Source: a virus | Direction: 5' to 3' (one strand) | IMG/VR virus record: IMGVR_UViG_3300031857_018978 | Coordinates: 1-59,675 of that record | DNA: 59,675 nucleotides | Shown: piece by piece, positions 21,945-44,845 of the stretch | Layout: every line of letters begins with the position of its first letter | How positions within the stretch are numbered: position 1 is the first letter of the stretch | Translations under genes and position numbers: made by a program | The notes under the pieces: generated by a model | What the model was told of the DNA's origin: nothing | The model's input: only the letters and a program-made list of their open reading frames with translations | Databases searched by the model: none

Positions 21945-22169
21945 TTAGCGGGAGCTTGTGTATCTTGTGCCTTGAAAGGTAACGGCCTTAACCTGATTCT
22001 TTGCGAATCGACGATTGCGGCCAGCATTACGATCCTCTACCGTGATCATTGTAGAGCCAAAGTTTACAAGACGAGCATTGATTACCTCATGAGAGGTCTC
22101 AAGACCGAAAAAACGACCAGCTGTACGGCTAATCGTGTTGAGCGCGCGATTTGAATTAGTGTTATTCAT
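21945..22169 (-). CDS. Small basic protein of unknown function
   Basis: A 74-residue protein. The ATG at 22169 (MNNTNSNRALN) is preferred to a GTG start further upstream that would overlap the previous gene. The sequence ARLVNFGSTMITVEDRNAGRNRRF suggests a small beta-barrel; it is Arg/Asn-rich with pI probably high. I know no family for it. It ends the transcript that stops at the terminator just downstream. Confidence 0.6.
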   Translation of the reverse strand: MNNTNSNRALNTISRTAGRFFGLETSHEVINARLVNFGSTMITVEDRNAGRNRRFAKNQVKAVTFQGTRYTSSR

Positions 22170-22171
22170 AT

Positions 22172-23164
22172 TTATGATTTCCACAAATAATAGAAGTCTC
22201 TGATTAATTTGTCAAGCTGTTTTTCGACAAAAAGTTTATCAAAAATTTTATTGTAAAAAAACTCTGACTTGTTAATCCAATATTTTAGTTTAGGTGGATT
22301 TCTCAAACCAAAAGTAATATATTCGGAAGTGATTTTTGAATTGAAGTAAGCAAAGTTAAATAAATTTGAGACATCTTTATTAAGCAATAATTTATCATAT
22401 GTATTCTTAGGTAAGGTCTGACAAATTTCTTCAAAGGTTTGATTTGAACAATTCAAAGTTTCTTTAGCTAGCAAAATATCTAAGTATATATTTGCATTAG
22501 CGGAGTACTCAAAATTAATAAATTTAATATCAGTGCCAGTGTAGATTATGTTTTCTGGACATAAATCAAAATGGCACAATCCACAATCTTGTGGATCTGG
22601 CTTATACATTTTTTTAAATACCATCTTGGCCGTAGAAAAAAGCTGAATTACTGGATACTTTTTTGCAACCATCATTGCTTCTCTAGGTAAAAAAGAATCA
22701 AATATTTTAATCGTTTGATCTTCCTCTTTTGTCTTAATAGAGTGCATTCGTTTTAAATCTCGCAAGAAAGTATCTTGAAGCTTTAACTTACGATTTAAAG
22801 GATAATTAGATATATCCGACAAAAACATTCCTTTCGGCACTTCAAAACAAAGAAATTTAAATTCATCAGAATCATTTGACGAACAAATTATTTTAGGATG
22901 AAAATCGTAGTTATTTTTCGAAAGCAGATCCCAAGAATTGGGAGTATCGGGAGATAAATTTACTTTTAATAAAAATGGCCTATCATTACCTGCGATTAAA
23001 TAACAATCGTAAATAGGATGAACTTCGTACTTCTTGCATAGACGAATTTCATGCCCAACTTTATTCTCTATAATTCTTTTTGTAGAAGACAAAAACTCTT
23101 CTTCTATAGGAAGAATGTCAACTTCATTTTTTACAGACTGCAAGTAATTTCTTTGTTTTTCCAT
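22172..23164 (-). CDS. Aminoglycoside-phosphotransferase/choline-kinase-like protein, possibly inactive
   Basis: A 330-residue protein with the APH fold outline: FLLKV (Lys67) as nucleotide-binding Lys and a catalytic loop HFDLCPEN (His198, Asp200, Asn205). Next comes INFEYSANA at the metal-binding site, where families normally have IDFEY: the Asp is Asn217 here. It could therefore be a weak kinase or a pseudokinase that binds a ligand. It overlaps the end of the ClpA/C-like gene by 41 bases, so the two are probably made together. The substrate (sugar, amino acid, antibiotic or protein) is unknown. Confidence 0.65.
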   Translation of the reverse strand: MEKQRNYLQSVKNEVDILPIEEEFLSSTKRIIENKVGHEIRLCKKYEVHPIYDCYLIAGNDRPFLLKVNLSPDTPNSWDLLSKNNYDFHPKIICSSNDSDEFKFLCFEVPKGMFLSDISNYPLNRKLKLQDTFLRDLKRMHSIKTKEEDQTIKIFDSFLPREAMMVAKKYPVIQLFSTAKMVFKKMYKPDPQDCGLCHFDLCPENIIYTGTDIKFINFEYSANANIYLDILLAKETLNCSNQTFEEICQTLPKNTYDKLLLNKDVSNLFNFAYFNSKITSEYITFGLRNPPKLKYWINKSEFFYNKIFDKLFVEKQLDKLIRDFYYLWKS

Positions 23165-25535
23165 TTAATTTTAATTCGTTATTTTCAACGAATACCTTTA
23201 TTGAATTATAATTATTGGAACAAAGAATATCAACAATCTTAGTCTTTATTTCGTTTTCTACAAAAAATACAATCTTTCTGGCACCTGTTTGCGAACTTCT
23301 CGTTTGATTTAAAATAAATTCATACACTTCTTTAGAGAAGGTAACGGAAGTCCCTTTGCTTTTTAAAGATTCTTTTATTTGATTAAGTTCAACATCAATT
23401 ATCTTATTCAGAGAATCGTCCGAAAGTTGATCGAATATAATTATGTCATTAAGTCGAGCCAAGAATTCTGGTTTGAAAAACTTTTTAAGATTATCCATCA
23501 CGATGTCTTTTTGTGGAGCGGGGTTGGACACCGCACCAAACCCAATTCTTTTATTGTCGGCAAATTGAAATCCGACATTGCCGGTCATTATGATGATAGA
23601 ATTTTTAAAGTTTAATTTATTACCAGTGGAATCAGTTACTTGTCCGCTATCCATGATCTGCAAAAGAATATTTATTACGTCTGGATGAGCCTTCTCTATT
23701 TCATCAAACAAGAATACTGAAGACGGGTGTTTATCGAGATGAGTCCAAAGAACATTCGCTGAACCGTAACCAACATAACCTGGAGGAGATCCTATTAATT
23801 TAGAAACAGAATGTGGCTCCATAAACTCTGACATATCTATAACGCAAAGATTGTCTTCGTTGCCAAATGCTTGTTTAGCTAAAGTTCTAGCTAAATGAGT
23901 TTTACCGGAACCAGTTGGGCCAATAAACATGAAATTCCCAAGCGGTCTATTCGATTTAGAAAGCCCAAAAGAACTGCGTAAAACACAGTCAGAAATCTTT
24001 TTTAAAGCTTCGTCTTGGCCGAAGATATGCTTTTTTAAATTAGGCAAGATGTTTTTTATTCCATCGTTGTTAGATTCTACATCTATAATTTTACCAATTT
24101 TATCTGACAAAGCAGCATAAACATCTTTGGTTTTTACTTTAAACACTTTACCTTTTACTGACTCAACCCACTCATCGTATTTCAATTCGTAATCTTCAAT
24201 TATTTTAGGCAAATGATTTTCTTTAACATCATCTGGCGCAAATTTCTCAAATTGAATAATTAGCCTTTCTGTGTTTTTGATATCATTTGGACGAGAGAAG
24301 CAGCGAATTTTAACTTTAGCGCCAACTTGATCCATTAAATCAATCGCCTTATCTGGAAATCTTTTCGACGGCATGTACTTGTCGCACAAAGAAATAACTT
24401 CATTGATGACCGCATCGGAATACTGAACCATGTGAAACTTTTCGTAAAATCCTTTTAAGGACTTTAGAATTTTAAATGTTTCTTCTTTGCTCGGTTCTTT
24501 TATGAAAACTGATTCAAATCTACGATTCATCGCCCCGTCTTTTACAAAGATATTCTCATACTCTTTTTGAGTAGTCGCTGCGATAAAAGACATATCTTCG
24601 GAAGTAAGATAGGGCTTTAAAATATTAGCTGCGTCCATTGATCCAGCATCGTTGCCCATACCTATGACATTATGAATTTCATCAACAAACACGATAGTGT
24701 TTTTCATGTTCTTCAACTCGTTCATGACCTTTACTAAACGTTCTTCAAACTCTCCGCGTAATTTTGTACCAGCAATTAAAGCAGATAAATTAAGACTGAT
24801 GATTTTTTTATTAAGCAAAAATTCTGTACAATTACAAGATACAATATTATTAGCGAGCAAACCAACAACAGCACTTTTGCCGACACCGGGTTCACCTATG
24901 AGAATGACATTTCTTTTTTGCTTTCTGCAAAGAATTTCTGAAATTTGAGCTACTTCTTTTTCCCTAAAGAAGATATTCTCAAAATCTCCTTGCATAGCAA
25001 GTTCATTAAAATCAGTATAATATGCCGAGGTCTGATTGTCGGATTGACCTTGATTCTTTTGATTTATTGGTCTTTTGACCGGATTAGATAGCATCTTGCA
25101 TTCTTTTTCTACCTTATCCGCCAAGAATGCAACGTCAACTCCGTTATTTTTAAAGAACTTTTTGACGCTAGATGAATGACGTAAAATTGATAAAAATAAA
25201 TGCTCTACTCCTGTATAGTTTTGCTTAAACGAGCTAGATATCTTATAAGATTCATTTATAATTAATGTAGCGCTTGCGCTATAAGGAATATTTTTTCCAG
25301 AAATCTTTTTCTTGCCAGACGGTAATATTTTAGAAAGAGCAAGGATAACATCCTTAACCTCAATAGATAATGATTGAAATACAAGATTAACAATCATTGA
25401 ATCGGAAAACAAAACTGAATGCAGCAGAAAATCGTCAGTAATTTCTGGAAAATTATTTTCTGCACAACGCTCTCTAGCAACGTCTAAAGCTCGTTTTACT
25501 TTTGGAGTAAAGTTTACGTCTTGCACTGTATTCAT
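23124..25535 (-). CDS. ClpA/ClpC-like AAA+ protein unfoldase
   Basis: An 803-residue Hsp100 protein with a Clp-N repeat domain (1-145). D1 AAA+ has Walker A GEPGVGKS at 214-221, Walker B VFVDEIHN and GEFEERL. D2 AAA+ has Walker A GPTGSGKT, pore loop GYVGYG and Walker B FLFDEIEKAH. There is no long ClpB-type middle domain. In D2 the tripeptide Ile664-Gly-Phe lies in RIGFGAVSN, exactly where ClpA has IGL; this is the loop that docks ClpP. No ClpP gene is visible here, so it may use the host protease. Seven bases separate it from the polymerase gene upstream. Confidence 0.9.
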   Translation of the reverse strand: MNTVQDVNFTPKVKRALDVARERCAENNFPEITDDFLLHSVLFSDSMIVNLVFQSLSIEVKDVILALSKILPSGKKKISGKNIPYSASATLIINESYKISSSFKQNYTGVEHLFLSILRHSSSVKKFFKNNGVDVAFLADKVEKECKMLSNPVKRPINQKNQGQSDNQTSAYYTDFNELAMQGDFENIFFREKEVAQISEILCRKQKRNVILIGEPGVGKSAVVGLLANNIVSCNCTEFLLNKKIISLNLSALIAGTKLRGEFEERLVKVMNELKNMKNTIVFVDEIHNVIGMGNDAGSMDAANILKPYLTSEDMSFIAATTQKEYENIFVKDGAMNRRFESVFIKEPSKEETFKILKSLKGFYEKFHMVQYSDAVINEVISLCDKYMPSKRFPDKAIDLMDQVGAKVKIRCFSRPNDIKNTERLIIQFEKFAPDDVKENHLPKIIEDYELKYDEWVESVKGKVFKVKTKDVYAALSDKIGKIIDVESNNDGIKNILPNLKKHIFGQDEALKKISDCVLRSSFGLSKSNRPLGNFMFIGPTGSGKTHLARTLAKQAFGNEDNLCVIDMSEFMEPHSVSKLIGSPPGYVGYGSANVLWTHLDKHPSSVFLFDEIEKAHPDVINILLQIMDSGQVTDSTGNKLNFKNSIIIMTGNVGFQFADNKRIGFGAVSNPAPQKDIVMDNLKKFFKPEFLARLNDIIIFDQLSDDSLNKIIDVELNQIKESLKSKGTSVTFSKEVYEFILNQTRSSQTGARKIVFFVENEIKTKIVDILCSNNYNSIKVFVENNELKLNGKTKKLLAVCKK

Positions 25536-25542
25536 TTTACAC

Positions 25543-28107
25543 TTAACTTTCGATCTGAGATAACTTTGTGTATATCTTTTCTGTGAGGATTGTCAAGCCA
25601 TTTAGAAAGATTGAATCATCGGCCTTTGAGCCATAGAGGACAACGATATCGTCTTCTTTAGGAGTCTTGCCTCCACCCTCGTAATATTGGGTAAACTTAT
25701 CGTCCCTGCCTCCATCAGTTAAACGGCAAGTCATTTGACCATACTCATCAGAAATTTTAACTAATAAATATGGACGACCAGCGCGGCTGACCTTTTTACG
25801 AGCCTCTTTAACTATACCAACCATCTTTACGTTTTGGCGCAAATCAACCTGAGAAACCTCATAAGTATTGTGAAGCCTGTCTTCTCCATCATTAAAAACT
25901 TCTTTTAATTTGTGGGTATAGCTATATCCGAGAAGACGTTTTTCAAAAAACCAGTTAGCGAACTTCTCATATTTTTTATTCATATCATAGATCTTCTTAT
26001 AAGGTTCGTACTTATTTTTAAATGTTTCAAAACGGCTTTCTTTCATAAACGGCTTACCATCATCTCCAACAGATTTATTTTTAACCAAATCAGCAATAGT
26101 ATTTAGTACATCATGGTCATATTTGGGAGCAACAAGTTTAACGTTACGCTTTTCTCTATCTGTTAAAACATTGTACGTCTGAGCTTCAAGTACAAGACGG
26201 CAGCGCTTTTCGCTGAAGCTAGAAAGAGTACCTGCTTGAATCAAAGATGATAAAACGCCAATATTCACACCAGCTTCTTTAGCTCCATCAAAGCAATCGA
26301 TCTTGTTTGCAAATTCTTCTTGTCTAAACTCAAGCAAATGAGTTAGTACTTTATCAGATACTCCTTTAATGGCATTTAAGCCAAATCGGATATTGTCGCC
26401 TTCGATTTCAAAATCAGCTTTTGACTTGGAAAGATCTGGCGGCAAAAGCCTGATGTTAAAGAATGAAAGCTCTTGTGAGATTGCTTCAATTTCTTCATGC
26501 GGATTTGGCTCATGCTTTGAAGATCTTAGTAAAGCCAAAAAGAATTCTTTTGGATGATTAAATTTAAGATAAGTAGTTAAAGCAGAAAGAGTAGCATAAG
26601 AAACGGCGTGAGATGCATTGAAAGAATAATTCGCACTATCTTCTGCAACTTTCCATAGAACATCAGCAACTGCTGCTTCTAGGTTATTAGAAGCGACTTT
26701 TTCTCTGATTTTCTGCTGCCAAGCTGGCATCTCGCTGACTTTCTTTTTGCCAACAATACGACGTACAGTCTCAGCTTCATCAAGAGTAAATCCAACCTTA
26801 ACGATCATCTTCATCAATTGTTCTTGGAAGATTGGAATGCCTCCAGTAACGCCAAGAATGTCATCAAAGAAAGGATGTACCGATTGGAATTGACCAGTGG
26901 CAACATATCTTGCGTATTGATCTAGGAAGTCTAAAGCACCGGGACGAGCAAGCGAAAGAACGCACGCTAGTTCAAGCATGTTTCTTGGCTTCACCTTTTT
27001 GCAAACATGAAAATTTGTGTTGGCTTCGATTTGGAATAGGCCCTTGGGATTAGATAGGTCTTGTAAGAATTTATATGTAGACGAGTTATCGAAATCAAGA
27101 TTCTTGAAATCTAAGCCAAGTCTTTGGCAGGTATCATAAACAACAGTCAAAGTTCTCAGCCCAAGGATATCGAACTTAACGGTAATTTCTGACACGTTGT
27201 TCATATCGTAGGCAGAAACGATCTCGCCATCGCCTGTCTTTTGCAATGGCATAATATCTTCATTGTTATAATATGAAATAGAAATACCAGATGGATGAAC
27301 TCCAGTATTCTTATTCAGTCCCTCAATCTTCTTGGCTATCTTATAAATCTTTGGATTCTTGTCGCAAAAAGCTTTGAACTGCTCGCTCTCTTCGTAAGCG
27401 TCTTTCAAAGCAAACACCTTGCCGAATTGCTTAGGGATAATATCGCTGACAGCATTAACTTCGTCCTCCGACATCTCTCCCACAATCTTACCGCACTCTT
27501 TAATACACAGTTTACCAGTAAGAGTATTCATGGTAAGAATCTTACAAGTCTTACCGGCGTACTTCGTTTTAATATAATTAATAACGTCCTGACGCTTTGA
27601 GAATTCAATGTCATTATCAACGTCAGGCATCAACGATCCGTCAAGGTAGGTTATGCCATCTACAACAATTTTTTTGGCGCGACTCTTTGAAACGAATCGC
27701 TCAAAGAACAATCCGTTTTTAATTGGATCTACATTGGTGACACCAATTAGAAAAAGAACCAAAGAGCCAGCCGCAGAACCACGCCCGTAACCAGTAGGAA
27801 TATTATGCTCATGAGCATAATTAAGAATGTCCCAGTTAAGCAGAACGTAATCAACGAAACCAAGTTCTTCAAAGATTGCCAGTTCATATTTTGCTCGTTC
27901 ATAATAGTCTTTTTTGTTAGATAATTTGTCTATGCCTTTTGTTCTGACCGCCTTCAAACAAAGTTGGCGCAAAAACTCGACGTTTGAAACTGAGGGATCG
28001 ATGCCAAGCTGTTCATAATATCTAGCATCAATTTTAATCTCTGGAAGGCGAACTCCAGGAGGAACAGGATGTTCGTATTTTTGAAAAGAGTTTAATAAAT
28101 TATTCAT
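25543..28107 (-). CDS. dnaE: DNA polymerase III alpha subunit, catalytic part
   Basis: An 854-residue protein lacking the PHP domain. Conserved segments: FVDYVLLNWDILNYA, GYGRGSAAGSLVLF, the catalytic Asp cluster in PDVDNDIEF and the third Asp in VKFDILGLRTL. Fingers-like HASHAVSYA-type sequence (NASHAVSYATLSALTTYLK) and a C-terminal OB fold (VKMVGIVKEARKK, YLLVKISDEYGQM) follow. The insertion just before PDVD (AKKIVVDGITYLDGS) is longer than usual. It starts by a 4-base ATGA overlap with the exonuclease gene. With the 28727-29464 product it would reconstitute a full alpha subunit that replicates phage DNA. Confidence 0.93.
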   Translation of the reverse strand: MNNLLNSFQKYEHPVPPGVRLPEIKIDARYYEQLGIDPSVSNVEFLRQLCLKAVRTKGIDKLSNKKDYYERAKYELAIFEELGFVDYVLLNWDILNYAHEHNIPTGYGRGSAAGSLVLFLIGVTNVDPIKNGLFFERFVSKSRAKKIVVDGITYLDGSLMPDVDNDIEFSKRQDVINYIKTKYAGKTCKILTMNTLTGKLCIKECGKIVGEMSEDEVNAVSDIIPKQFGKVFALKDAYEESEQFKAFCDKNPKIYKIAKKIEGLNKNTGVHPSGISISYYNNEDIMPLQKTGDGEIVSAYDMNNVSEITVKFDILGLRTLTVVYDTCQRLGLDFKNLDFDNSSTYKFLQDLSNPKGLFQIEANTNFHVCKKVKPRNMLELACVLSLARPGALDFLDQYARYVATGQFQSVHPFFDDILGVTGGIPIFQEQLMKMIVKVGFTLDEAETVRRIVGKKKVSEMPAWQQKIREKVASNNLEAAVADVLWKVAEDSANYSFNASHAVSYATLSALTTYLKFNHPKEFFLALLRSSKHEPNPHEEIEAISQELSFFNIRLLPPDLSKSKADFEIEGDNIRFGLNAIKGVSDKVLTHLLEFRQEEFANKIDCFDGAKEAGVNIGVLSSLIQAGTLSSFSEKRCRLVLEAQTYNVLTDREKRNVKLVAPKYDHDVLNTIADLVKNKSVGDDGKPFMKESRFETFKNKYEPYKKIYDMNKKYEKFANWFFEKRLLGYSYTHKLKEVFNDGEDRLHNTYEVSQVDLRQNVKMVGIVKEARKKVSRAGRPYLLVKISDEYGQMTCRLTDGGRDDKFTQYYEGGGKTPKEDDIVVLYGSKADDSIFLNGLTILTEKIYTKLSQIES

Positions 28108-28730
28108 ACGTCAACCTGCATAATTAACTTACGGAAAATTTTGTAGTTCATTTGGATATCGTACAAAGCATCGTGTAGCTTTGAGGGATCATGATCAATT
28201 CCAAATTGCTTGAGCAAAAACCCCTGACTTGTTTTTAGACCTTTCTCTCTATGATTCATGAGTTTCATTTGCCATGAGAGTAGATCTCCAGACGGCTTTA
28301 TGTCCTTGAATAGTGCCGTAGCTAAAGCTTTGGTGTCAAGCATCCTGTTGATAAAACTCCAATCGTTTTGGATGCTTATGCCACGCATCATTGTATTTAA
28401 AATATAAATATCATAACCGAGTACATTCTGCCCAACAAGAATGTTATTATCATCATAAAGATAACTAGCAAATTTCTTCCATACCTCAATTGGCGGCTTT
28501 GCTCTGGAGATATATTTTTCTTTATTGAAGCCTGTTATCCTAGCCGCGTCTTCAGACACGTTAAGATCGTCGTAGAATACGAATTCGTCATGCTCTTCTA
28601 AGATATCTTCACCTTTACATACTATCCAAGATAATTGCCAAGGGCGAGAATCAGTCAAAGACAAACCCTCCGTTTCGGTATCAAATACCACGAACTTTTG
28701 ATTAATTTTTTGTTTTAAAAGATTGTTCAT
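28104..28730 (-). CDS. DnaQ-like 3'-5' exonuclease
   Basis: A 208-residue DEDDh exonuclease: Exo I FVVFDTETEGL, Exo II QNVLGYDIYIL, Exo III HDALYD. The ATG at 28730 overlaps the previous stop as ATGA, so the longer reading is not used. It would be the proofreading subunit of the neighbouring polymerase. It is inserted between the genes for the PHP and catalytic parts of Pol III alpha. In Firmicutes PolC an exonuclease domain is likewise inserted in the PHP domain, but within one polypeptide. Confidence 0.88.
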   Translation of the reverse strand: MNNLLKQKINQKFVVFDTETEGLSLTDSRPWQLSWIVCKGEDILEEHDEFVFYDDLNVSEDAARITGFNKEKYISRAKPPIEVWKKFASYLYDDNNILVGQNVLGYDIYILNTMMRGISIQNDWSFINRMLDTKALATALFKDIKPSGDLLSWQMKLMNHREKGLKTSQGFLLKQFGIDHDPSKLHDALYDIQMNYKIFRKLIMQVDV

Positions 28731-29464
28731 GACGACTCCTTCCAAGATTGGAAGCAAAATTCTTTACTACCACAGCCACCAAGTTCTGGCGCAGATAAGC
28801 TTTGATTCTTGCCCATATTTCTGTTACAAGCTATTTTATATGTAACCCAAGCTGGAAAGTCTTCGCGATTTTTGTAATAGATTGATTTAGCCTCTACAAC
28901 TTTTTCTTTAAATCTTGATTTAAGAAATTCGCCAGTAATCTTATCAAATGGAAGTTTATTATCTTCCGTAAAGTAAATCACATCTTCATTATCTAAAAAG
29001 TCTGGCATACAATTTGAAAATGTATATTTATTCTTCCAGATGTAAGAATCATAAAACGGTACGGCAATTAAAATATTATCTGTCAAGCGTTGAACTAGAT
29101 CATCGTTAGAAATAACTGATTCTTTTTCTGTATTTGCAAAAGTATAAATTTTATTGATATCTTTAAATCCAGAATCATTTAAAGCAAATAAAATTAGTCT
29201 ATGAGTGGATGAATCGGCTGACTCATAACTATTGCAAACTTGAATCCGTAGTCCAAACTTTAATTGGATATTATGTTTTTGACAATTTTTAAAAGCAGTC
29301 AAAAAGCCAGTCAAAGAATCTTCTACCAAATAGATCTCTTTGAGGCTGTTTTCAAGCGCAATCGAAATAATGCTATCGGGACCATCTTGCTTTTGCTTCT
29401 CTGCTTCGTTCAGCGTGAGTATGCTTCTCCCAAATGAGAAGTGCGACTTGAATAGTGGGATCAT
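28727..29464 (-). CDS. DNA polymerase III alpha subunit, separate PHP-domain piece
   Basis: A 245-residue protein. Its start, FKSHFSFGRSILTLNEA, followed by ALENSLKEIYLVEDSLTGF and IQLKFGLRIQV, lines up with the N-terminal PHP domain of DnaE (HLRVHSDYS, AlTD.NLcG.v.F, PI.G). The metal-binding residues are largely lost: the HxH of active PHP domains is KSH here and LTD is VED, so it is probably structural. It ends before the region that begins the polymerase core. The order PHP, exonuclease, core suggests a split gene rather than an independent protein. Confidence 0.75.
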   Translation of the reverse strand: MIPLFKSHFSFGRSILTLNEAEKQKQDGPDSIISIALENSLKEIYLVEDSLTGFLTAFKNCQKHNIQLKFGLRIQVCNSYESADSSTHRLILFALNDSGFKDINKIYTFANTEKESVISNDDLVQRLTDNILIAVPFYDSYIWKNKYTFSNCMPDFLDNEDVIYFTEDNKLPFDKITGEFLKSRFKEKVVEAKSIYYKNREDFPAWVTYKIACNRNMGKNQSLSAPELGGCGSKEFCFQSWKESS

Positions 29465-29470
29465 ACCACT

Positions 29471-29498
29471 ATCCTAGCAGGTCCGTCTAGGATGTCAA
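29471..29498 (-). promoter_or_regulatory. Inverted repeat and possible promoter before the split polymerase operon
   Basis: ATCCTAG (29471-29477) and CTAGGAT (29487-29493) form a perfect 7-bp inverted repeat with a 9-base spacer, 6 bases upstream of the ATG at 29464 and overlapping the previous stop codon. On the - strand TTGACA (29498-29493) and TAGGAT (29476-29471) are spaced by 16 bases, resembling a sigma70 promoter, which would make a nearly leaderless mRNA. In RNA the repeat would be a hairpin at the start site. Confidence 0.5.
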
Positions 29499-30524
29499 GT
29501 GCTTTGGGCATCCAAGATAGTTTTCTTTCGTAACCTTCTCATCTTGCTTGGCAATTTTAAATGCCTCGCCCATGTCTTCTTCCAAGAAAGTTTTAATTAT
29601 TTTATTATCTTTATCTCTCAAAGCATAGTAATTAAATCCAAATTTGTATGGGCAATGCCACATTGGATTACCGTCTTTCTTTAACTGTCCTTTGTGCTTT
29701 GCAAAGCCACAGGCCAGTTTGCCGCTAAATGAACCATCTGAAGGCATCGGTTTGTCGGCTGCAAAATTAGAATAGGCATCGGGTTCAGAAAAGTTATCTA
29801 TAACTTTTTGAACTTCGGTTAAATGATTTTCAAACTCACTAAGCTCACTTTTGGTTGGTGGTTTCATTTTTAATAAACCGCCATTCTTAGTTTTGTCTTT
29901 AAGATCAAATTTAAGAAATAAAAATTCCATTGAAGCTTTGTGCTTTGGATCAAGCTTCTTAGATGCAAGAGTATAAATCATATGCTGCATATTGTCTTCT
30001 GCATCCTTGCCCGCAAATACGGCTTTGCTAGTTTTATAGTCTCTTACTACCGAAGTACCGTCATCGTAAATAAATTGGCGGTCAATAAATCCTTTAATCC
30101 TATATTTTTTATCTTTTTTATCTACTGTTATATCGAAGTCTCTTTCTTGCAAATCCTGCACAGGCAACCTTTCTGCATCACCCCAAAAGTCATATTTTAG
30201 GGCAGTCAAAGTCATTTCTTTAATCAGTTCAATATTGTCTGGATCAGAAACTTTAAGCTTTCTGGCGTGCTTCAACGAGAGCTTTTTAATAGACTTAATT
30301 GTAAAAATATCGCCAGCATCTAAAATAGAATCAACATATGGTTTTCTTTTTTTCTTCGCCAAACACTCAAGGACAAGATGGACAACATTACCTCTGCTCG
30401 CTCCTTCGTTTGACTTCTCGGGAAGCTTTAAAATGTAATTGCACCAATACGACCAACTACACTTCTCTAGTGTCTTGATTCGGCTTGCAGAAAGCGCAAC
30501 ATGTTTAATCTCAGGCTGTGTCAT
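29487..30524 (-). CDS. RecB/Cas4-like PD-(D/E)XK nuclease
   Basis: A 345-residue protein. LSASRIKTLEKCSWSYWC at the N-terminus, then RGNVVHLVLE, and the catalytic part GFIDRQFIYDDG, VVRDYKTSK, MIYTLAS follow the AddB/Cas4 nuclease family. Further Cys residues occur in LACGFAKHKG, HCPYKF and LGCPKH, so an iron-sulphur cluster like that of Cas4/AddB is possible. It lies between primase and polymerase genes, suggesting DNA end processing in replication or recombination. No cas genes or CRISPR array are present. Confidence 0.8.
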   Translation of the reverse strand: MTQPEIKHVALSASRIKTLEKCSWSYWCNYILKLPEKSNEGASRGNVVHLVLECLAKKKRKPYVDSILDAGDIFTIKSIKKLSLKHARKLKVSDPDNIELIKEMTLTALKYDFWGDAERLPVQDLQERDFDITVDKKDKKYRIKGFIDRQFIYDDGTSVVRDYKTSKAVFAGKDAEDNMQHMIYTLASKKLDPKHKASMEFLFLKFDLKDKTKNGGLLKMKPPTKSELSEFENHLTEVQKVIDNFSEPDAYSNFAADKPMPSDGSFSGKLACGFAKHKGQLKKDGNPMWHCPYKFGFNYYALRDKDNKIIKTFLEEDMGEAFKIAKQDEKVTKENYLGCPKHLTS

Positions 30525-31590
30525 TTAGAATTTTTTCAGCCCTTTTGATAAGACTGTCGGGAAATTTATTGGCAACTGCAATCTCATGAATTTTCTTAAT
30601 TTGAGCTTCCATGTTTATTGTCTTTGAATTCCATTCGTCAAAAATATTGTCTTCGCCTTCAAATGTCGCAAGGTGCATGTCAAAGAAATCGTTTTTAAGT
30701 GGCAGTTTAATTTGGAGCTTTGAATAATCAAAGATCGAAGAAAGCTGAAGAAATGTTTTGCAAGCAGAGATGAGACCGTGATTAGTCTCCCCATTAGAAT
30801 CATTATTTGAAGCGATAATAATTTTATCAGGGTCCAGCGCAACAAGGGCAGAAGAAAGCTTGGACGAAATGCCGAGTCCAAAAGTAACTACATTATTTTT
30901 ATATCCATGTTCGAACAATGCCATACTGTCGCCAACGCTTTCGACAATGATAACGGATCGCCGCTTTTCAATTTCTTCTTTGACTTCGTAAACATTATTT
31001 CGTTTTAAATTGGCTGGATAAACCCAATCTGCTCTTTTGCCCACATGTTTCCATTTTGGAAATTCAGAATCTTTTTCCCAGAAAACGGCTCGACCAGAAA
31101 ATCCGTGAATTTGCCCAAATTGATTATAGATTGGAAACACTATTCTTCTGAACAATTGGCCAGATGTAGCATAACCGCATTTATAAAAATCCAACGTATC
31201 TTTGCTAATCTTTTTCTTTAAATAAAAATCAAGATGAGGCAAAAGATTTTCTAAAATAGATTCTGGATAAATTTTTTCCATCTCAATTTTTTCTTTATTT
31301 TGTACATGGATAATATTTTGAGCGTCAAATTTTACATACTTATTTACGATATAAGAATCTTTTGTGTCTAAAGTTAATTCAACAAGTCTTTGGAATGGAT
31401 AACTTTTTGAACTCCCTGCCGCAAAATCAGTCCACACTCCACTATTCTTATATATTTTTAATGCGGTAGAGTTATCTCCACCACGATACAAGGCTGTAGT
31501 CCTCCAATAGCTACCGTAGTCTTTAAGCTGATAACCTAAAGACTCAAGAGAGCTTTTGAGAACAACTGGATCAATTGAAACTTGGGACAT
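30511..31590 (-). CDS. DNA primase with Toprim domain, zinc ligands missing
   Basis: A 359-residue protein. The N-terminal part (about 20-70; SYWRTTALYRGGDNSTALKI, SGVWTDFAAG) corresponds to the primase zinc-binding domain, but the Cys/His ligands are absent. The core (LFRRIVFPIYNQFGQIHGFSGR) and the Toprim domain (VIIVESVGDSMALFEHG, DKIIIASNNDSNGE) are present, with the first Asp of the DxD pair replaced by Asn. It overlaps the helicase gene by 20 bases if the ATG at 31590 is used; the alternative start at 31602 is GTG. It makes RNA primers together with the adjacent DnaB. Confidence 0.82.
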   Translation of the reverse strand: MSQVSIDPVVLKSSLESLGYQLKDYGSYWRTTALYRGGDNSTALKIYKNSGVWTDFAAGSSKSYPFQRLVELTLDTKDSYIVNKYVKFDAQNIIHVQNKEKIEMEKIYPESILENLLPHLDFYLKKKISKDTLDFYKCGYATSGQLFRRIVFPIYNQFGQIHGFSGRAVFWEKDSEFPKWKHVGKRADWVYPANLKRNNVYEVKEEIEKRRSVIIVESVGDSMALFEHGYKNNVVTFGLGISSKLSSALVALDPDKIIIASNNDSNGETNHGLISACKTFLQLSSIFDYSKLQIKLPLKNDFFDMHLATFEGEDNIFDEWNSKTINMEAQIKKIHEIAVANKFPDSLIKRAEKILNDTA

Positions 31591-33088
31591 TATCGTCTTC
31601 ACCAGAATTTTGTAGGGTTGTGGCGTTAGTATCCGCCTGATTTACGATATCGCGAAGATCGCCGCGCTCTTTAATGTCAAAATTCTCAAACTGAAGGTTA
31701 ATAAAATTCTTCTTAAGCGTGCCATCTGGCATTCTAACCAATTCAACGGCACCAGCAACATCAGATCCAAGAAAGCGGTTTTTGACAAAGATGAGTTTAT
31801 GAGAACCAAAGTTTGGCCCCTCTTCTTGTCTTTCGTCGGCTGTCTTGGGTCGCAGAATAGCCATATGAGAGCAATAATGAGTGATTCGATCAGACATCGA
31901 CACAATCCCCTCATCGTCATTGATCGCGTCAGAATTACGGTTTGTAGTAATGCCGCTACGATTAGATTGAATCGAAGTGAACATTGTAATCATAGGCTTT
32001 TGGTCTTGTACGATATCGCGCTGAATGGTCTTTTTAAATTTATTCAACATATCGCCAATGACTTGCCATTCTGGCTTATTACCATCAGCATCAGCAGAGG
32101 GCTTGATATAATCAAAGCTAAAGATGAGAGGATTGCCGCGACCAACCTTGGAATAATAAAAACGCTTCAAATTATTAATCATTTGGTCGGTAGTCATGCC
32201 GCCAACATTATAATAATAAAATTTAAGCTTCTTAATCTTATCCCAAGTAGAACGAACTCTTTGAACTACATCTTCGCCAGCCTTACGCCAAAGTCCAGTT
32301 TCTAGTAAATGCATTGGGACATGGCTTAGAGCGGCACATTGGCGCATGATAACTTCTTCCTTACTCATCTCTCCGTTATCGAAGTGCAAAACAGGAACAT
32401 CATGCTGCGCTGATACTTTGGTTGTATAGTTTAGCGCCAATAGAGTTTTACCTACACCCGAACGTGCCACGACAACAGTAATGTTACCGGGACGAAGAAG
32501 AGATCCATAAATCTTATTAACAGTTGGAAATGGACCCATGAAACCAAATTCAGTAATAGGATTGTTGCCGCGTTCTTCAATGACGGCTTCCATTTCTTCG
32601 AAGATGTTAACCGGCTTTTCTTCATTGTTCTCATAAATATTTATAATTTTATTAAATGTAGTATCAGCCTCTTCAACAATTTTTTGATAAGAAGAATCTG
32701 GGGCGATCTTCTTCATCTTGTCCGCTACTTCAAGAGCAGATTCATGGATGGCCCTTCTGATAGAATATTTCTTAATTTCCTTGGCGGCAGATATAGCTGT
32801 GGTTTTGTTGGTCTTCCTGACCGCCAGAGACCTCAAATAATCAAAAACGTCAATATTATCTTTAAAAGAGATACCAATTTCTTTGATTCTCTGGGCGATA
32901 ATAATCTCATCGACCTTTTCATTCCCCTCCAAGCATTTACGAATTATATGATAAATCGTCTTGTGAACGATTGTGTCTTCAGAATAAAAATCTGATTCTG
33001 AAACAAAATCGCAAATTTCAGAGTAAGTCTCTGGATACTGAATCAGTCCTGCTAGGAACTGCTTCTCTACTTCTAATGAATAAAGCAT
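31571..33088 (-). CDS. dnaB: Replicative DNA helicase, DnaB-like
   Basis: A 505-residue protein with a DnaB N-terminal helical domain (EKQFLAGLIQYPETY, FYSEDTIVHKTIYHII), then the RecA-like motor with Walker A VVVARSGVGKTLLALNY. HFDNGEMSKEEVIMRQ, LIFSFDYIKPS and the SIQSNRSG/SDRITHY switch regions follow. It is the ring helicase unwinding DNA ahead of the split Pol III. Its start overlaps the previous stop (TAATG). Confidence 0.93.
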   Translation of the reverse strand: MLYSLEVEKQFLAGLIQYPETYSEICDFVSESDFYSEDTIVHKTIYHIIRKCLEGNEKVDEIIIAQRIKEIGISFKDNIDVFDYLRSLAVRKTNKTTAISAAKEIKKYSIRRAIHESALEVADKMKKIAPDSSYQKIVEEADTTFNKIINIYENNEEKPVNIFEEMEAVIEERGNNPITEFGFMGPFPTVNKIYGSLLRPGNITVVVARSGVGKTLLALNYTTKVSAQHDVPVLHFDNGEMSKEEVIMRQCAALSHVPMHLLETGLWRKAGEDVVQRVRSTWDKIKKLKFYYYNVGGMTTDQMINNLKRFYYSKVGRGNPLIFSFDYIKPSADADGNKPEWQVIGDMLNKFKKTIQRDIVQDQKPMITMFTSIQSNRSGITTNRNSDAINDDEGIVSMSDRITHYCSHMAILRPKTADERQEEGPNFGSHKLIFVKNRFLGSDVAGAVELVRMPDGTLKKNFINLQFENFDIKERGDLRDIVNQADTNATTLQNSGEDDNVPSFN

Positions 33089-33345
33089 TATTCGTTGTCG
33101 GTTGCTGTAATTTTATCTTCTTCGTCCGATAGCCATTGTCCGATAGCCGTCTTCATACCTAATGAAGTTACGATAGAATCAAATCTCGTATAAATTTGAG
33201 GTGTCCCTTTGGGAGAACACACGCAAAGGATAACTCCTTTGTATGAGTCAGCACTACCAGAAATTTCATAAACTTGCTCTACCAGTTCCGTTGGGAATAT
33301 AAAATCTTTTGGCTCTTCTTTTTGGTCTTTGTTTTTTTTACTCAT
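33088..33345 (-). CDS. Small phage protein of unknown function
   Basis: An 85-residue protein. I use the ATG at 33345 (MSKKNKDQKEEPKDF), which overlaps the nuclease stop as ATGA; a longer reading would run far into the nuclease gene. The core VYEISGSADSYKGVILCVCSPKG looks like a small alpha/beta fold. It is sandwiched between nuclease and helicase genes, so it probably belongs to replication or recombination. Confidence 0.6.
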   Translation of the reverse strand: MSKKNKDQKEEPKDFIFPTELVEQVYEISGSADSYKGVILCVCSPKGTPQIYTRFDSIVTSLGMKTAIGQWLSDEEDKITATDNE

Positions 33346-33746
33346 AGAACGATGCGTTCGAAAAATTCCTTCGACAATATGTCGCTTTCGTATATTTCTA
33401 CCAGTTCTATGTCGTTTGTCAAGCAGAAGTTCAGCTTTAAATCGTCTCTTTTTAATTGAAGAAGCCAATTTTGACGATTGTTCCCATGAAAATGGGGATT
33501 GTAAGTTTGATGCTGTTTGCCTTGAACTTCTATTGCAATTTTTTTATTTGCGTTATAAAAGTCCAAAGAAAGCCGCGAACCAACAATCCGCATCTCTTCG
33601 AACACGACATCATGCTTCCAGTATGGCAATAAAAATTGCTTTACTCTCCATTGGAAATTGCTCTTTGATTTAGCCTCCCAATTTATAATATATTTTTTAG
33701 CGTTTTTTAATAAACGCTCTTTGCCGCTAAGTGTTTTAAACTTCAT
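33342..33746 (-). CDS. PD-(D/E)XK nuclease-like protein (DUF559/Vsr type)
   Basis: A 134-residue protein with SRLSLDFYNANKKIAIEVQGKQH, a D-(X)n-E-x-Q-G-K active-site line as in DUF559/Vsr-like nucleases, then QNWLLQLKRDDLKLNFC. It immediately follows recA, overlapping it by 11 bases, so a role in recombination-intermediate cutting is plausible. A homing-type nuclease is the alternative. Confidence 0.7.
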   Translation of the reverse strand: MKFKTLSGKERLLKNAKKYIINWEAKSKSNFQWRVKQFLLPYWKHDVVFEEMRIVGSRLSLDFYNANKKIAIEVQGKQHQTYNPHFHGNNRQNWLLQLKRDDLKLNFCLTNDIELVEIYESDILSKEFFERIVL

Positions 33747-34890
33747 TTGATTTTGTGGAAATCATATCCACGAAATACTTGTGTAAGAACGCTACAAGCT
33801 TTGTATTTGATTCTATAAATTCAAAAATAGCATTTTCTCCTTGAAATTTATCTGGAGCTTCAAAACCGTTTTCTTTCAATGTAGAAGCAAAATCTTCTGC
33901 TATATAATACCAAGCACCAGAACGAGTCACAAGCTCCCAACGCATAAGCATATCGACAATTTCTTTTTCCAACCAGACGGATCGCCCATCGGTTCTGCCA
34001 TACTTGATTGGATATTGGAATTTCACTTTGCTTTTTTCGTTGGGGCTTTTTTTGATAACCACTTTGCAAAAATGTCCGATAATCGGATTCTTTACTGGGT
34101 CGGCTTTTTTAATGGCTGGGTCTTTCAAAATAACATCTCCTTCAAAGCGAGGTTCAAAATCAAAAATAAAATCAGCAAAATGTAAAAGCGCATTTCCTCC
34201 GGTAGCTGATGTTTGACGAATCGGCGCGGAACTATAGGGATCAATCTTTACGTCGCTTCTAACTTGAGAGATGAAAATTGCCATATGGCCGCGTTTTTGA
34301 AGAGCGATTGACATTCGCTTCATAAAATCAGAAGCAAGAACAGCGCCGCCAGCAACCTTCTTTGACTCCTCAAATGTCTTGTCCAAATCTCCTTTGGTAA
34401 TAAGACCATCGACAGAATCTAGAATAAACATATATTTATTCTTTTCTTCATTGTGCATAACAAGTTGACGCATCGCATCTACAACAGTCTCGTAAATATT
34501 GCACTCAAAAACAAAGCAAGTACCGGCTTCCCATTTCTCTGCGTCAAAAACAAATTTGACTCCAGATCGCTTCATCATTTCTTCGGACAGTCTGCCTTCG
34601 GCTTTAATATAAAAGCCCTTTGCTCCATCAACTGTTCTTAGAAAATTTTTCATTACTTCTAGAGCAGCAGAAGTTTTGCCTCCTTCGGTAAAGCCAACAA
34701 ACCTATGAACGCCAGGTCTCAAACCTCCTCCAGTAAGGAGGTCAAAATTTAATGATCCAGTAGAAACTTTGTAAGATACAAACTCTTCAAAATTATAATG
34801 ATCTTCTTTCTTATTTTTTAGAAAAGAATTTAAAATAGTCTTTGAGGATGTTACTTCCTGCTTTTCTTCTTGCTCTTTTGCTTTTTTCAT
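33736..34890 (-). CDS. RecA/UvsX-like recombinase
   Basis: A 384-residue protein. GSLNFDLLTGGGLRPG leads to Walker A GFTEGGKTSA; Walker B KYMFILDSVDGL; then MAIFISQVRSDVKIDP and TSATGGNALLHFAD, the RecA L1/L2-region analogues. It would catalyse strand exchange in phage recombination. It overlaps a small upstream gene (ATGA) and the nuclease gene (11 bases), giving a recombination cluster. Confidence 0.88.
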   Translation of the reverse strand: MKKAKEQEEKQEVTSSKTILNSFLKNKKEDHYNFEEFVSYKVSTGSLNFDLLTGGGLRPGVHRFVGFTEGGKTSAALEVMKNFLRTVDGAKGFYIKAEGRLSEEMMKRSGVKFVFDAEKWEAGTCFVFECNIYETVVDAMRQLVMHNEEKNKYMFILDSVDGLITKGDLDKTFEESKKVAGGAVLASDFMKRMSIALQKRGHMAIFISQVRSDVKIDPYSSAPIRQTSATGGNALLHFADFIFDFEPRFEGDVILKDPAIKKADPVKNPIIGHFCKVVIKKSPNEKSKVKFQYPIKYGRTDGRSVWLEKEIVDMLMRWELVTRSGAWYYIAEDFASTLKENGFEAPDKFQGENAIFEFIESNTKLVAFLHKYFVDMISTKSNEV

Positions 34891-35216
34891 GATAAAAATT
34901 GTTTAAGTGTTTTTTTGGTTTTAATTTCTGCGTCCTTACCGATCTTTTGTTCTAAAGAAAGATCTTGTTGATGAAGGCGAGTATAGTAATACTCCTTGTA
35001 GTCAACGTCAAGTAACTTCTTCTTCCAATCTGCAAAGAAGAATGCCAACGTAGGAACTTTTTTTTCCTGTTGGATTTGCGCGAGAAAATCAATGCTGTAC
35101 GATTTTTCTAGTCTTTTTAGAAAGACCATCTCTCTTTGCCAAAATCGTTTGTCGGCATTTGCTGGAATTTCAACCAGTGAATCTATAATCTTTTTTCTAT
35201 TTAGCTTTTCCTTCAT
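34887..35216 (-). CDS. Small helical protein of unknown function
   Basis: A 109-residue protein starting at MKEKLNRKKIIDSLVEIP. It is charged and helical (FWQREMVFLKRLEKSY, KVPTLAFFFADW). I recognise no family. It precedes recA with a 4-base overlap, so it may be a recombination accessory protein. Confidence 0.55.
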   Translation of the reverse strand: MKEKLNRKKIIDSLVEIPANADKRFWQREMVFLKRLEKSYSIDFLAQIQQEKKVPTLAFFFADWKKKLLDVDYKEYYYTRLHQQDLSLEQKIGKDAEIKTKKTLKQFLS

Positions 35217-35247
35217 GCCCGCAGTTAAGCAGACACTTTTGTCTTTG

Positions 35248-35682
35248 TCAAGACTTATTGGATGCAGCCGCAGAACCAAAATAAAATCCAGTAACCGCAA
35301 TCAAACATTCTCTGATTTCTGATGTAATTAAATTACCAGAGATTTCAACGAAAGCTTTATTAGCTGTTTCGTTCCCAATCAAACCCAAGAAGCTGCCTCC
35401 ACTTGTATAATCGACTTCAAGATACGTTGGGATACCTAAAATCGCCATAACAAATGGAGATACTACAATTGAAAATATTACAGAGATTACGATAAATTGT
35501 CTGATTACTTTGCCAACGTCTCCATCTCTCTTTGATGCTTTATCGGCAGATTCATCGCGCTTATCTATCGCTTTCATCATTCTATCAAATCTGGCTCTGC
35601 TTTCTTCCGCTTTCGCAGCTATAATGCGGAATATAAAACCTGTTACCGCTCCACCAAATAGACTGATAAGCTCTGTAGGCAC
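35248..35682 (-). CDS. Small membrane protein
   Basis: A 144-residue protein with an N-terminal hydrophobic stretch (LFGGAVTGFIFRII), a charged coiled section (AKAEESRARFDRMMKAIDKR), a strong transmembrane helix (FIVISVIFSIVVSPFVMAIL), and a C-terminal hydrophobic helix (CLIAVTGFYFGSAAAS). It resembles small membrane proteins of marine phages, possibly holin-like or virion-associated, but no function can be assigned. Confidence 0.6.
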   Translation of the reverse strand: MPTELISLFGGAVTGFIFRIIAAKAEESRARFDRMMKAIDKRDESADKASKRDGDVGKVIRQFIVISVIFSIVVSPFVMAILGIPTYLEVDYTSGGSFLGLIGNETANKAFVEISGNLITSEIRECLIAVTGFYFGSAAASNKS

Positions 35683-35690
35683 ATACTATT

Positions 35691-36317
35691 TTACACCGCA
35701 AACGCCTGTATGGTTAATGGGAATTTATTTGTTTCTTTTACTAGCTGTAGCATTTGAGCAGCAATATCTCTTATTTCTTTTTGCGCGTCTGGTTTATTTC
35801 TTAAATTTAAAAAATGCGCGAAAGATCGCCAGTTAAACATAACATCAGCAGCAATTTGCGTATTATAAGGTCTAAAAAATCTAGCTGATTCCTTGGCCCT
35901 CTTGCGATTAAAACCGTGATTTTGAACTAAATCTTCAATGCACTTATGATACAAGTCAAGACCTTTTTCTGTATAATTAGTTAAAATCTCTTTCCAGCTA
36001 TCGGGCCAATCCTCTGGAATTAAAAACTCATCTTCTTTGATCTCTTTGTAGCGTGCAGACTCTCCGTTGACAGACACACCAATACGGTGCTTAATGATAT
36101 GAATATGAGAAGCGATGTCTGTATTTACTAAAAAATGCAAGGAGGATTTTTCAAATGGGGTATGATGACCGTTTTCTGCGAGCATTTTGAGTAGATCGCC
36201 CACTCGACCTTTCTTTTCTTCATTAATCTCTCTGCTGGTTGATGTCCAAGCAGAACAAGCGTGAGTAAGGTCGTCGCCATAAATTCCAATTAGTTCAACT
36301 TTGTTTGTTCGATTCAT
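35691..36317 (-). CDS. thyX: FAD-dependent thymidylate synthase
   Basis: A 208-residue protein. The ThyX signature is KHRIGVSVNGESARY, where the family has RHRxxSxNxxSxRY, so the first Arg is Lys. ENGHHTPFEKSSLHF and the FRPYNTQIAADVMFNWRSF region are also typical. It makes dTMP from dUMP using methylene-THF and FAD. Together with dUTPase and RNR it would supply dNTPs. It overlaps the GT90 gene by 23 bases. Confidence 0.93.
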   Translation of the reverse strand: MNRTNKVELIGIYGDDLTHACSAWTSTSREINEEKKGRVGDLLKMLAENGHHTPFEKSSLHFLVNTDIASHIHIIKHRIGVSVNGESARYKEIKEDEFLIPEDWPDSWKEILTNYTEKGLDLYHKCIEDLVQNHGFNRKRAKESARFFRPYNTQIAADVMFNWRSFAHFLNLRNKPDAQKEIRDIAAQMLQLVKETNKFPLTIQAFAV

Positions 36318-37239
36318 TGTAGATTTTATTATAAGCCATTAAGACTTGAGCGTAATAATGGGCATGAAAATCTGGTTTGGCAAGAGTATTTGCGATCTTT
36401 TTTTGATGCTCTTTAAAAAATTGAATTTCAGACTGCCAATTTTCACTCCAATTTAAAAAGTTTTCCAATGACTCCTCATCTAAAGTTAGAAAATACTGAG
36501 ACAAGTCAAAAATATGATAATACCAAGATATTTCGTCTTGATGGGCTGGGGGTTTTACGAAAATACAAAAAGAATTAGAGTGCATAGCCCAAATCAGTCT
36601 TTCCCAAGAAGTCGTATTACCATTAACATTTAATATGTATTTATAATTAAGCTGATCTTTAATTGATACGGGTTGATGATAAATAGAAACATCAAAAGGC
36701 TGTTCTACAAAATTAGTAATCTTAGCGATGACTTTATCGCTGTTCTTGTATCTCTTGCAAAGGTTAACCCTTTGAACTGATCCATCCTTGTATTTTCTAC
36801 CAGTATCAGAACCAAAGAATGAAGCTTTATCAAGCTTTTCTTCAAATGGTTTGTCGATAGATTTTAATGAATCGCATATAGATACAGTTCTACCTAAATG
36901 AGAATCTGGTATACAGATATGTGGACTTTTTCTTGGACGAGCAAAGCAAAATCTTGTTTCCGTAGCTTCGTTCTCTGGACCGTCATTAAAATTAACTATA
37001 AATCTAAAATTTAGATTTTTTAATGAAAAATGATTAACTACTTGAGATGTAAAATTAACAAAGAAATTTAATCTAATATTATCTATATTGGGATTACATC
37101 TTTCAAGAGTGAGGGCGTCGTAAGAAAGTAAAAACTGAGCCTCATTTTTGTGAAGCTCAGTCTTTGACGGATCTTTAGGGAGGTTGATGCGCTTTACATC
37201 AACCTCGTTAAGCAGACAATATGTTTTGAACGATTCCAA
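36295..37239 (-). CDS. GT90 (CAP10-like) glycosyltransferase
   Basis: About 315 residues. The GT90 pattern is visible: LDKASFFGSDTGRKYKDGSV, VQRVNLCKRY, the KYILNVNGNTTSWERLIWAM segment, then YYHIFDLSQYFLTL. It would transfer xylose, glucose or a related sugar to a glycan or protein. There is no ATG before the conserved region. The frame is continuous with the upstream adhesin gene and separated from it only by one TAA, so translation starts at the TTG right after that stop, or the stop is read through. Confidence 0.7.
   Translation of the reverse strand: MESFKTYCLLNEVDVKRINLPKDPSKTELHKNEAQFLLSYDALTLERCNPNIDNIRLNFFVNFTSQVVNHFSLKNLNFRFIVNFNDGPENEATETRFCFARPRKSPHICIPDSHLGRTVSICDSLKSIDKPFEEKLDKASFFGSDTGRKYKDGSVQRVNLCKRYKNSDKVIAKITNFVEQPFDVSIYHQPVSIKDQLNYKYILNVNGNTTSWERLIWAMHSNSFCIFVKPPAHQDEISWYYHIFDLSQYFLTLDEESLENFLNWSENWQSEIQFFKEHQKKIANTLAKPDFHAHYYAQVLMAYNKIYNESNKQS
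37180..37206 (-). promoter_or_regulatory. Hairpin just inside the GT90 frame
   Basis: GAGGTTGATG (37180-37189) pairs perfectly with CATCAACCTC (37197-37206) around a 7-base loop. On the - strand it lies 34 bases downstream of the in-frame TAA that separates the adhesin and GT90 frames. It could stimulate readthrough or control reinitiation, or be chance. Confidence 0.4.
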
Positions 37240-38762: not shown

Positions 38763-39809
38763 TTACTTCGATTTGTCAAGTGAGTTTTCTAAATCATTGG
38801 AAACCATCTTTTTAACCAGTCTGTAAAAAGAGGTTTTAGGAGACCAGCCTATTTCTTTTCTGGCTTTTGACGAATCTCCAAGCAAGATATCCACTTCTGC
38901 TGGTCTAAAAAATTTTGGATTAACAACTACAAGTGGATATTTAAATTGTTTGTGAACGAAGACTTCTCCAACTGTTCCAGATTCTCCAAGCCAAAAACCT
39001 TCTATTTCTGCCGCTGCAAAAGCAAGTTCAACAAATTCTTTTACGGTATGAGTTTCGTTAGAAGAAAGAACATAATCCTTTGGTTCGTTTTGATTAAGCA
39101 TAAGCCAAACGCCCTCTACAAAGTCTTCTGCGTCGCTCCAATCGCGCTTCGCGGAAAGATTCCCTAATTCAATTGGTCTTGGAATTTGATTTGAACCCAA
39201 AGATTTTACTATATCCGCTACGCCTTTTGTAATCTTTCTGGTAACAAATTCTTGACCTCTCCTAGTTCCTTCGTGATTAAAAAGCCAACCTTGCACAGCA
39301 TAAAGACCGTAAGACTCTCTCCAGACTTTTACTATCTGACGAGCAGATGCTTTTGAAGCTCCATATGGGCTTCTGGGTCTTAATGGATGATTTTCATCTT
39401 GCGGGACATAGGCTACATCGCCAAATTCTTCTGAAGAACCCGCATTGTAATATTTGCATTTTGGGGCAAACTTTCTGATAGCTTCCAATTGATAAAGAAC
39501 TCCCATGCAATTTGACTGCATATGCACAACTGGCATTTCCCAACTTGTGCCTACAAAAGAATTTGCCGCGAAATTAATAAAATAATCTGGCTTATATTCC
39601 TGTACGGTATTGTTAACGCTCTGAGGGTCTCCAATATCCATGTGAGCAAGTTTAAATCTAGGATCTTTAATGTGAGCGATATTTTGGTGATTTGGAACAC
39701 TGAGTCTTCTTACCGTGCCAATGATATTATAATCTGTATTTTTTAATAGAAAGTCAACCATGTGGCTTCCATCTTGTCCGGTGACTCCAGTTATGATGAC
39801 TGTTTTCAT
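38763..39809 (-). CDS. gmd: GDP-mannose 4,6-dehydratase
   Basis: A 348-residue extended short-chain dehydrogenase: TGVTGQDGSHMVDFLL nucleotide-binding loop, RRLSVPN, the NAGSSEEFG catalytic region, YGASK (Tyr, Lys), and RPAEVDILLGDSSKARKEIGW. It converts GDP-mannose to GDP-4-keto-6-deoxy-mannose, precursor of GDP-fucose, rhamnose, perosamine or colitose. The next PLP-type enzyme in the cluster decides which (see the 40167 gene). Confidence 0.93.
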   Translation of the reverse strand: MKTVIITGVTGQDGSHMVDFLLKNTDYNIIGTVRRLSVPNHQNIAHIKDPRFKLAHMDIGDPQSVNNTVQEYKPDYFINFAANSFVGTSWEMPVVHMQSNCMGVLYQLEAIRKFAPKCKYYNAGSSEEFGDVAYVPQDENHPLRPRSPYGASKASARQIVKVWRESYGLYAVQGWLFNHEGTRRGQEFVTRKITKGVADIVKSLGSNQIPRPIELGNLSAKRDWSDAEDFVEGVWLMLNQNEPKDYVLSSNETHTVKEFVELAFAAAEIEGFWLGESGTVGEVFVHKQFKYPLVVVNPKFFRPAEVDILLGDSSKARKEIGWSPKTSFYRLVKKMVSNDLENSLDKSK

Positions 39810-40165: not shown

Positions 40166-40166
40166 A

Positions 40167-41309: not shown

Positions 41310-41313
41310 ATTA

Positions 41314-43579: not shown

Positions 43580-43602
43580 ACCCTAAATCATAGGGTATGC
43601 GT
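43574..43602 (-). promoter_or_regulatory. 12-bp hairpin covering the start codon of the GMP-reductase gene
   Basis: ACGCATACCCTA (43574-43585) and TAGGGTATGCGT (43591-43602) form a perfect stem with a 5-base loop. The gene's ATG (43579-43577) and the AGGG before it are inside the stem, and a decoy ATG (ATGATTTAG) lies in the loop. No U-run follows on the - strand, so it is more like a translation-control element than a terminator. Confidence 0.6.
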
Positions 43603-43616
43603 TAAATTATTCTACT

Positions 43617-44840: not shown

Positions 44841-44845
44841 AATAT

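Follow-up and report, generated by a model that had tools for sequence, protein, structure and literature searches.

A putative three-polypeptide DNA polymerase III core with a separately encoded PHP domain in uncultured phages

The 59,675-base IMG/VR virus record IMGVR_UViG_3300031857_018978, a phage contig that is itself a fragment and is referred to below, at its full length, as the window, carries on its minus strand three consecutive genes encoding a PHP protein, a DEDDh 3'-5' exonuclease and a DnaE-type polymerase without a PHP domain. The locus probably represents a phage DNA polymerase III (Pol III) core in which the usual two polypeptides have become three, namely, a polymerase, a PHP scaffold and a proofreader; we put the probability of this reading at about 0.75. 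Only the detachment of the PHP domain is new; a DnaE-type polymerase combined with a degenerate PHP domain and a separate DEDDh exonuclease is a known proteobacterial solution (PMC3666897). The features of the locus are listed below, with protein lengths in amino acids (aa) and the evidence in brackets.

28727..29464, minus strand: separate gene of the putative PHP subunit, 245 aa (Pfam, AlphaFold2 model, hhalign, ligand table over 130 relatives)
28104..28730, minus strand: DEDDh 3'-5' exonuclease gene, 208 aa (RNase_T, invariant DEDDh residues, match to the PolC exonuclease PDB 2p1j)
25543..28107, minus strand: gene of the DnaE-type catalytic subunit without PHP, 854 aa (Pfam, NCBIfam, AlphaFold2 model)
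28727..28730, minus strand: ATGA overlap of the PHP and exonuclease genes (sequence)
28104..28107, minus strand: ATGA overlap of the exonuclease and polymerase genes (sequence)

Gene order in the window and in related contigs

The three open reading frames (ORFs) and both ATGA junctions, which had been reported in a first-pass annotation of the window, were verified on the minus strand. The exonuclease starts with the ATG at 28730, an alternative TTG being located further upstream at 28757, and its Shine–Dalgarno sequence (AAGGAG) lies inside the end of the PHP gene, just upstream of the ATGA (GGAAGGAGTCGTCATGA). Scans with the polymerase and PHP pieces yielded at least hundreds of matches; among the matches listed, to which the counts of loci and distinct polymerases refer throughout, there were 378 loci and 198 distinct polymerases, and ten relative contigs belong to bacterial and archaeal metagenome-assembled genomes. 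The order PHP, exonuclease, polymerase on one strand accompanies 186 of the 198 distinct polymerases, and the remaining 12 start within about 600 nucleotides (nt) of a contig end, with the upstream part cut off. The search for the same order in other phages, proposed in the first-pass annotation, was positive in every testable distinct relative (186/186), a conservation far beyond chance; neither a fused PHP–polymerase or exonuclease–polymerase gene nor any ORF combining two of the three was found in the 378 loci.

The overlap of the frames at both junctions could be expected if one polypeptide were made via programmed frameshifting, or if the contig contained an assembly error. This explanation is ruled out in practice, since the junctions vary among 186 distinct contigs from overlaps to gaps of more than 2 kb, some of them enclosing whole genes; besides, the PHP and exonuclease genes of one relative (L127) are in frame but have a TAA between them, and the exonuclease gene of the window has a Shine–Dalgarno sequence of its own. 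The genes inserted at the junctions in relatives include those of IMPDH/GMP-reductase domain, SET-domain and LAGLIDADG proteins. In 12 relatives (L054:4389-5363 and 11 other loci), a gene with an IMP dehydrogenase/GMP reductase domain (Pfam IMPDH, 9.4e-57) separates PHP from the exonuclease, and a SET-domain gene (Pfam SET, 2.7e-13) occupies this place in seven (L195:5812-6345, with similar genes in six more loci); SET proteins are uncommon in phages.

The pairwise identity of the polymerases among relatives goes down to 37.5%. In a FastTree phylogeny, where E. coli DnaE was the only reference from the DnaE1-3 and PolC groups, 64 representatives split from 11 reference DnaE with a support of 1.0 and a stem of 0.93 substitutions per site. 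The Nei–Gojobori ratios of non-synonymous to synonymous substitutions (dN/dS), where calculable, are 0.02–0.10 for PHP, 0.01–0.04 for the exonuclease and 0.01–0.03 for the polymerase; the figures are rough because several dS values are saturated. Judging by these ratios, purifying selection acts strongly on all three genes. It is hardly credible that the PHP gene is a decaying, non-functional remnant of a former full-length DnaE: its metal site is dead and its conservation is lower than that of the polymerase, as such a remnant would have it, but it is a full-length ORF in all relatives, many of its residues are invariant, its dN/dS is low where calculable, and neither relaxed selection nor frequent loss is seen in the relatives.

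The three proteins and their affinities

The catalytic piece contains the Pfam DNA_pol3_alpha, finger and HHH_6 domains, with a Pol beta-like palm, thumb, fingers, HHH and OB present, and three catalytic Asp positions, assigned in part by analogy with E. coli alpha, are conserved. All 27 aligned polymerases match DnaE models with E-values of about 1e-140 (best about 1e-146), whereas PolC models reach at best 1e-11 to 1e-12. The AlphaFold2 model (predicted local distance difference test, pLDDT, 87.1; predicted template modelling score, pTM, 0.81) aligns with residues 276–1122 of Taq DnaE and 259–1074 of the E. coli protein, with Z-scores of 37–41 to the best DnaE chains versus 28 to PolC. The OB domain is C-terminal, as model residues 733–843 match OB folds (Z about 12), and Pfam OB was found in 9 of the 27 polymerase relatives; the placement of OB differs between DnaE and PolC (PMC3919608). 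By sequence and by predicted structure, the catalytic piece is clearly of the DnaE type and not PolC. The polymerase stops at the equivalent of residue 1122 of the 1220 residues of Taq DnaE, the C-terminal tau-binding domain being missing; a pattern search revealed no conserved β-clamp motif Qxx[LMI][FL] in the family, though divergent motifs would escape it.

The polymerase genes of some relatives have peculiarities of their own. In L058, L126 and L141 the catalytic piece is split again into two ORFs about 0.2–0.9 kb apart (near residue 500 in L058), and in the L056 polymerase (L056:5995-9783) the finger region carries an intein (Intein_splicing, 1.5e-12) with a LAGLIDADG endonuclease. The L040 polymerase (L040:5251-8583) has 249 extra N-terminal residues matching neither the PHP profile nor Pfam; by eye, this extension resembles small ORFs located between the exonuclease and polymerase genes elsewhere (e.g., L035:2083-2568).

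The exonuclease matches Pfam RNase_T (9.4e-16), and the DEDDh residues D17, E19, D107, H186 and D191 are invariant in 30/30 exonuclease relatives, which bears out the earlier prediction of a DEDDh exonuclease between the two pieces. The gene order suggests that it proofreads for this polymerase. A profile search linked it to the PolC exonuclease PDB 2p1j (2.9e-7), and the best curated match is a PolC exonuclease as well (7.5e-15), narrowly ahead of epsilon (best 1.9e-11).

PolC has its exonuclease inserted into the PHP domain (PMC3919608), and the first-pass annotation had regarded the locus as a Pol III alpha split around an exonuclease gene, resembling PolC and intermediate-looking. The split and the position of the exonuclease gene stand; the intermediate character is not supported. 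An evolutionary intermediate between DnaE and PolC, that is, the ancestral arrangement preceding the insertion of the exonuclease in PHP and the fusion, would agree with the exonuclease gene lying between the PHP and polymerase genes and with the PolC-leaning exonuclease match. Such an origin is nevertheless very unlikely, since the polymerase is DnaE by a wide margin, with OB at the C-terminus, and the PHP domain is complete and uninterrupted, the exonuclease gene coming after it; extra genes may separate PHP and exonuclease, and the family forms one long-stemmed clade apart from the reference DnaE, nothing suggesting that it is basal (in the tree without PolC). The exonuclease match does not override the polymerase evidence because the exonuclease domain is divergent and mobile.

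The PHP piece passes the Pfam PHP cut-off narrowly (28.6 bits versus 26.4), and 24 of its 30 relatives match this family. Its profile aligned with DnaE N-termini over 214 columns (hhalign, E 2.2e-10), and its AlphaFold2 model (pLDDT 91.2, pTM 0.88) is similar to residues 6–247 of E. coli Pol III alpha (VIA Z 22.3, root-mean-square deviation 2.7, 226 residues aligned) and to residues 7–258 of Taq DnaE (Z 21.9); the scores were 18–19 for the PolC PHP and at most 12.2 for non-polymerase PHP enzymes. Comparison of the models indicates a continuous, complete PHP domain, at which the protein begins with no preceding OB, and no substitute for PHP in the polymerase. The models of the two outer pieces tile residues 7–258 and 276–1122 of Taq DnaE with neither duplication nor large gap, which places the cut at the PHP/palm border and the end of the polymerase after the OB domain.

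The nine PHP ligands were mapped onto 130 relatives. The first His is retained in 78/130 and elsewhere replaced mainly by Thr, Cys, Asn or Ser; Ser occupies the second position, and the third (Asp of LDG) lies where the alignment is poor and its placement not secure. The TDH His position is occupied by Asp in 117/130, the Glu position by Arg or Lys in 122/130 and the sixth-position His by Lys or Arg in 128/130, while Tyr replaces the Cys, Ser or Thr the last Asp, and Tyr, Phe or Leu the last His. No ligand position is conserved in the 130 relatives (the third being insecurely aligned), and the nine-ligand motif HHDHEH[C/H]DH, any departure from which is treated as inactive (PMC12926913), is absent; the claimed loss of the metal-binding residues is confirmed, with the frequent retention of the first His as a nuance. 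In terms of sequence, the locus shows the pair described earlier, in which a separate proofreading exonuclease accompanies the loss of PHP ligands (PMC3666897).

The former metal positions are now mostly Lys, Arg, Glu/Asp, Ser or Tyr and strongly conserved; the motif FKSxxSxGKSI is nearly invariant at the former metal site, and K13, R73 and K89 are conserved. Perhaps the detached PHP has ceased to be a structural component of the polymerase and has a new job, its Lys/Arg pocket serving to bind, for example, a nucleotide, DNA or a host factor; the conserved pocket, the separate and faster-evolving gene and the presence of other genes between PHP and exonuclease in some relatives would fit. We consider this improbable, given the strict co-occurrence and order with the polymerase, the absence of a PHP substitute in the latter and the usual fate of structural PHP domains, namely the charge replacement of metals, where Arg is the commonest replacement of a metal ligand and stands in for the metal charge (PMC3666897). 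The dead metal-nuclease site with Lys/Arg at ligand positions makes a structural subunit the most likely role of the PHP protein.

Comparison with known replicases

According to an earlier account (PMC3666897), the chain of every C-family polymerase unites PHP, palm, thumb and fingers; in the family studied here, PHP is a separate ORF in 186/186 relatives. The E. coli Pol III core (alpha, epsilon and theta, DnaE1) shares with the window a DnaE-type polymerase, a degenerate PHP and a separate DEDDh proofreader, but its PHP is covalently included in alpha, its epsilon has a tail for PHP and clamp binding, and the genes are not adjacent; alpha also carries a C-terminal tau-binding domain, unlike the window polymerase. 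PolC, the Pol III of Gram-positive bacteria, shares the joint encoding of PHP, exonuclease and polymerase and is slightly the best match of the exonuclease in hidden Markov model searches; it differs in being one chain with the exonuclease inside PHP, an N-terminal OB and a mostly intact PHP metal site, and belongs to another polymerase subgroup.

Split phage DnaE genes are already known, and the examined ones are cut elsewhere, with PHP kept on the palm. The DnaE of Cellulophaga phage phiST (gp44/45), Rossellomorea phage phiT1 and Alicyclobacillus phage KKP_3916 is likewise encoded by more than one ORF, but the cuts lie in the palm or fingers (the first near residue 144 or 331 of the window polymerase), PHP stays fused to the palm, and no exonuclease gene was recognised between the pieces. 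Streptomyces phages BoomerJR and SarahRose, Bacillus phage FADO and Moorella phage MTATph1 have a homologous core, about 25–33% identical, in a single DnaE chain of about 1070–1240 aa with an N-terminal PHP; among cultured phages, the polymerases closest to that of the window do not exceed about 33% identity. The phage protein families PHROG 405, 7513, 11165 and 12219, three of them annotated as DNA polymerase, match the pieces in sequence.

The tblastn search with the window PHP protein gave no significant match in cultured phage records, and the PHP pieces of the family gave only weak matches, to DnaE PHP domains of Rhizobium phages with the L231 piece. No counterpart was found among the cultured phages searched, other groups (e.g., around PHROG 11165) having been searched less than exhaustively, and no description of a separate PHP subunit was found in the literature on DnaE and PHP in phages, in a coverage that mostly excludes subscription journals.

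Proposed core, genomic context and implications

In the proposed three-polypeptide core, the pieces would associate with one another. The 854-aa subunit, with its DnaE family membership, domains and catalytic residues, would synthesise DNA. The 245-aa protein, most likely a structural subunit, is a DnaE PHP domain cut from the chain at the PHP/palm border, with the fold kept and the metal ligands lost; it would dock on the polymerase at the place of the covalent PHP, and it may help to hold the proofreader. The DEDDh protein, which has the active-site residues, would proofread instead of the dead PHP nuclease, and the overlapping genes in a fixed order would probably provide coupled translation and balanced amounts. 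A structural, adaptor-like role of PHP is the best guess, since the E. coli PHP stabilises Pol III, which becomes less stable and less active when the degenerate PHP site is mutated (PMC3666897), and this PHP also binds epsilon (PMC3919608).

Several observations weigh against such a core. The PHP–exonuclease gap is at most 30 nt in 140/186 relatives but exceeds 300 nt in 41/186, usually with another gene inside, and the exonuclease–polymerase gap is at most 30 nt in 139/186 and exceeds 300 nt in 15/186, so tight translational coupling is not universal. The exonuclease has no C-terminal tail like the PHP-binding tail of E. coli epsilon, and a PHP–exonuclease contact, if existing, must differ from that of E. 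coli. PHP evolves faster than the polymerase, as a loosely bound or peripheral subunit would.

The neighbours of the locus include the following genes, the first of which belongs to the same replication gene cluster:

29487..30524, minus strand: PD-(D/E)XK nuclease (PDDEXK_1), upstream
30511..31602, minus strand: DnaG-like primase with TOPRIM, upstream
31571..33088, minus strand: DnaB-like replicative helicase, upstream
23124..25535, minus strand: ClpA/ClpB-like double AAA+ ATPase, downstream, 7 nt after the polymerase gene

No β-clamp gene was found within the window, which is a fragment. A 330-aa ORF at 22172-23164, adjoining the Clp-like gene, has a weak choline kinase/APH-like match (7.5e-6, below the Pfam cut-off). 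Terminator-like hairpins are in about twofold excess in 22000-37500 (19 versus 9.2 in shuffles, standard deviation 3.0). The region 38763-48617 contains a cluster of nucleotide-sugar epimerase, aminotransferase, dehydrogenase and glycosyltransferase-like genes, which suggests sugar modification by the phage.

PHP has been stated to be present in every C-family chain even when enzymatically dead (PMC3666897), and the reason for its retention is not fully understood; here, in a large group of uncultured phages, it is cut off at the domain border and kept as a gene of its own. Annotation by the polymerase alone hides this replicase subunit, and proteins such as the window PHP piece, barely above the Pfam threshold, would often read 'hypothetical'. 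More speculatively, and rather doubtfully, replicases with a detachable, non-covalent PHP may form a distinct widespread lineage, in which the Lys/Arg pocket has a new role and PHP is not a fixed domain but an adaptor, regulatory or swappable, that links polymerase and proofreader. With the arrangement described here, what PHP does apart from enzymatic activity could be tested directly, since a protein can be added or left out and no multi-domain enzyme has to be mutated.

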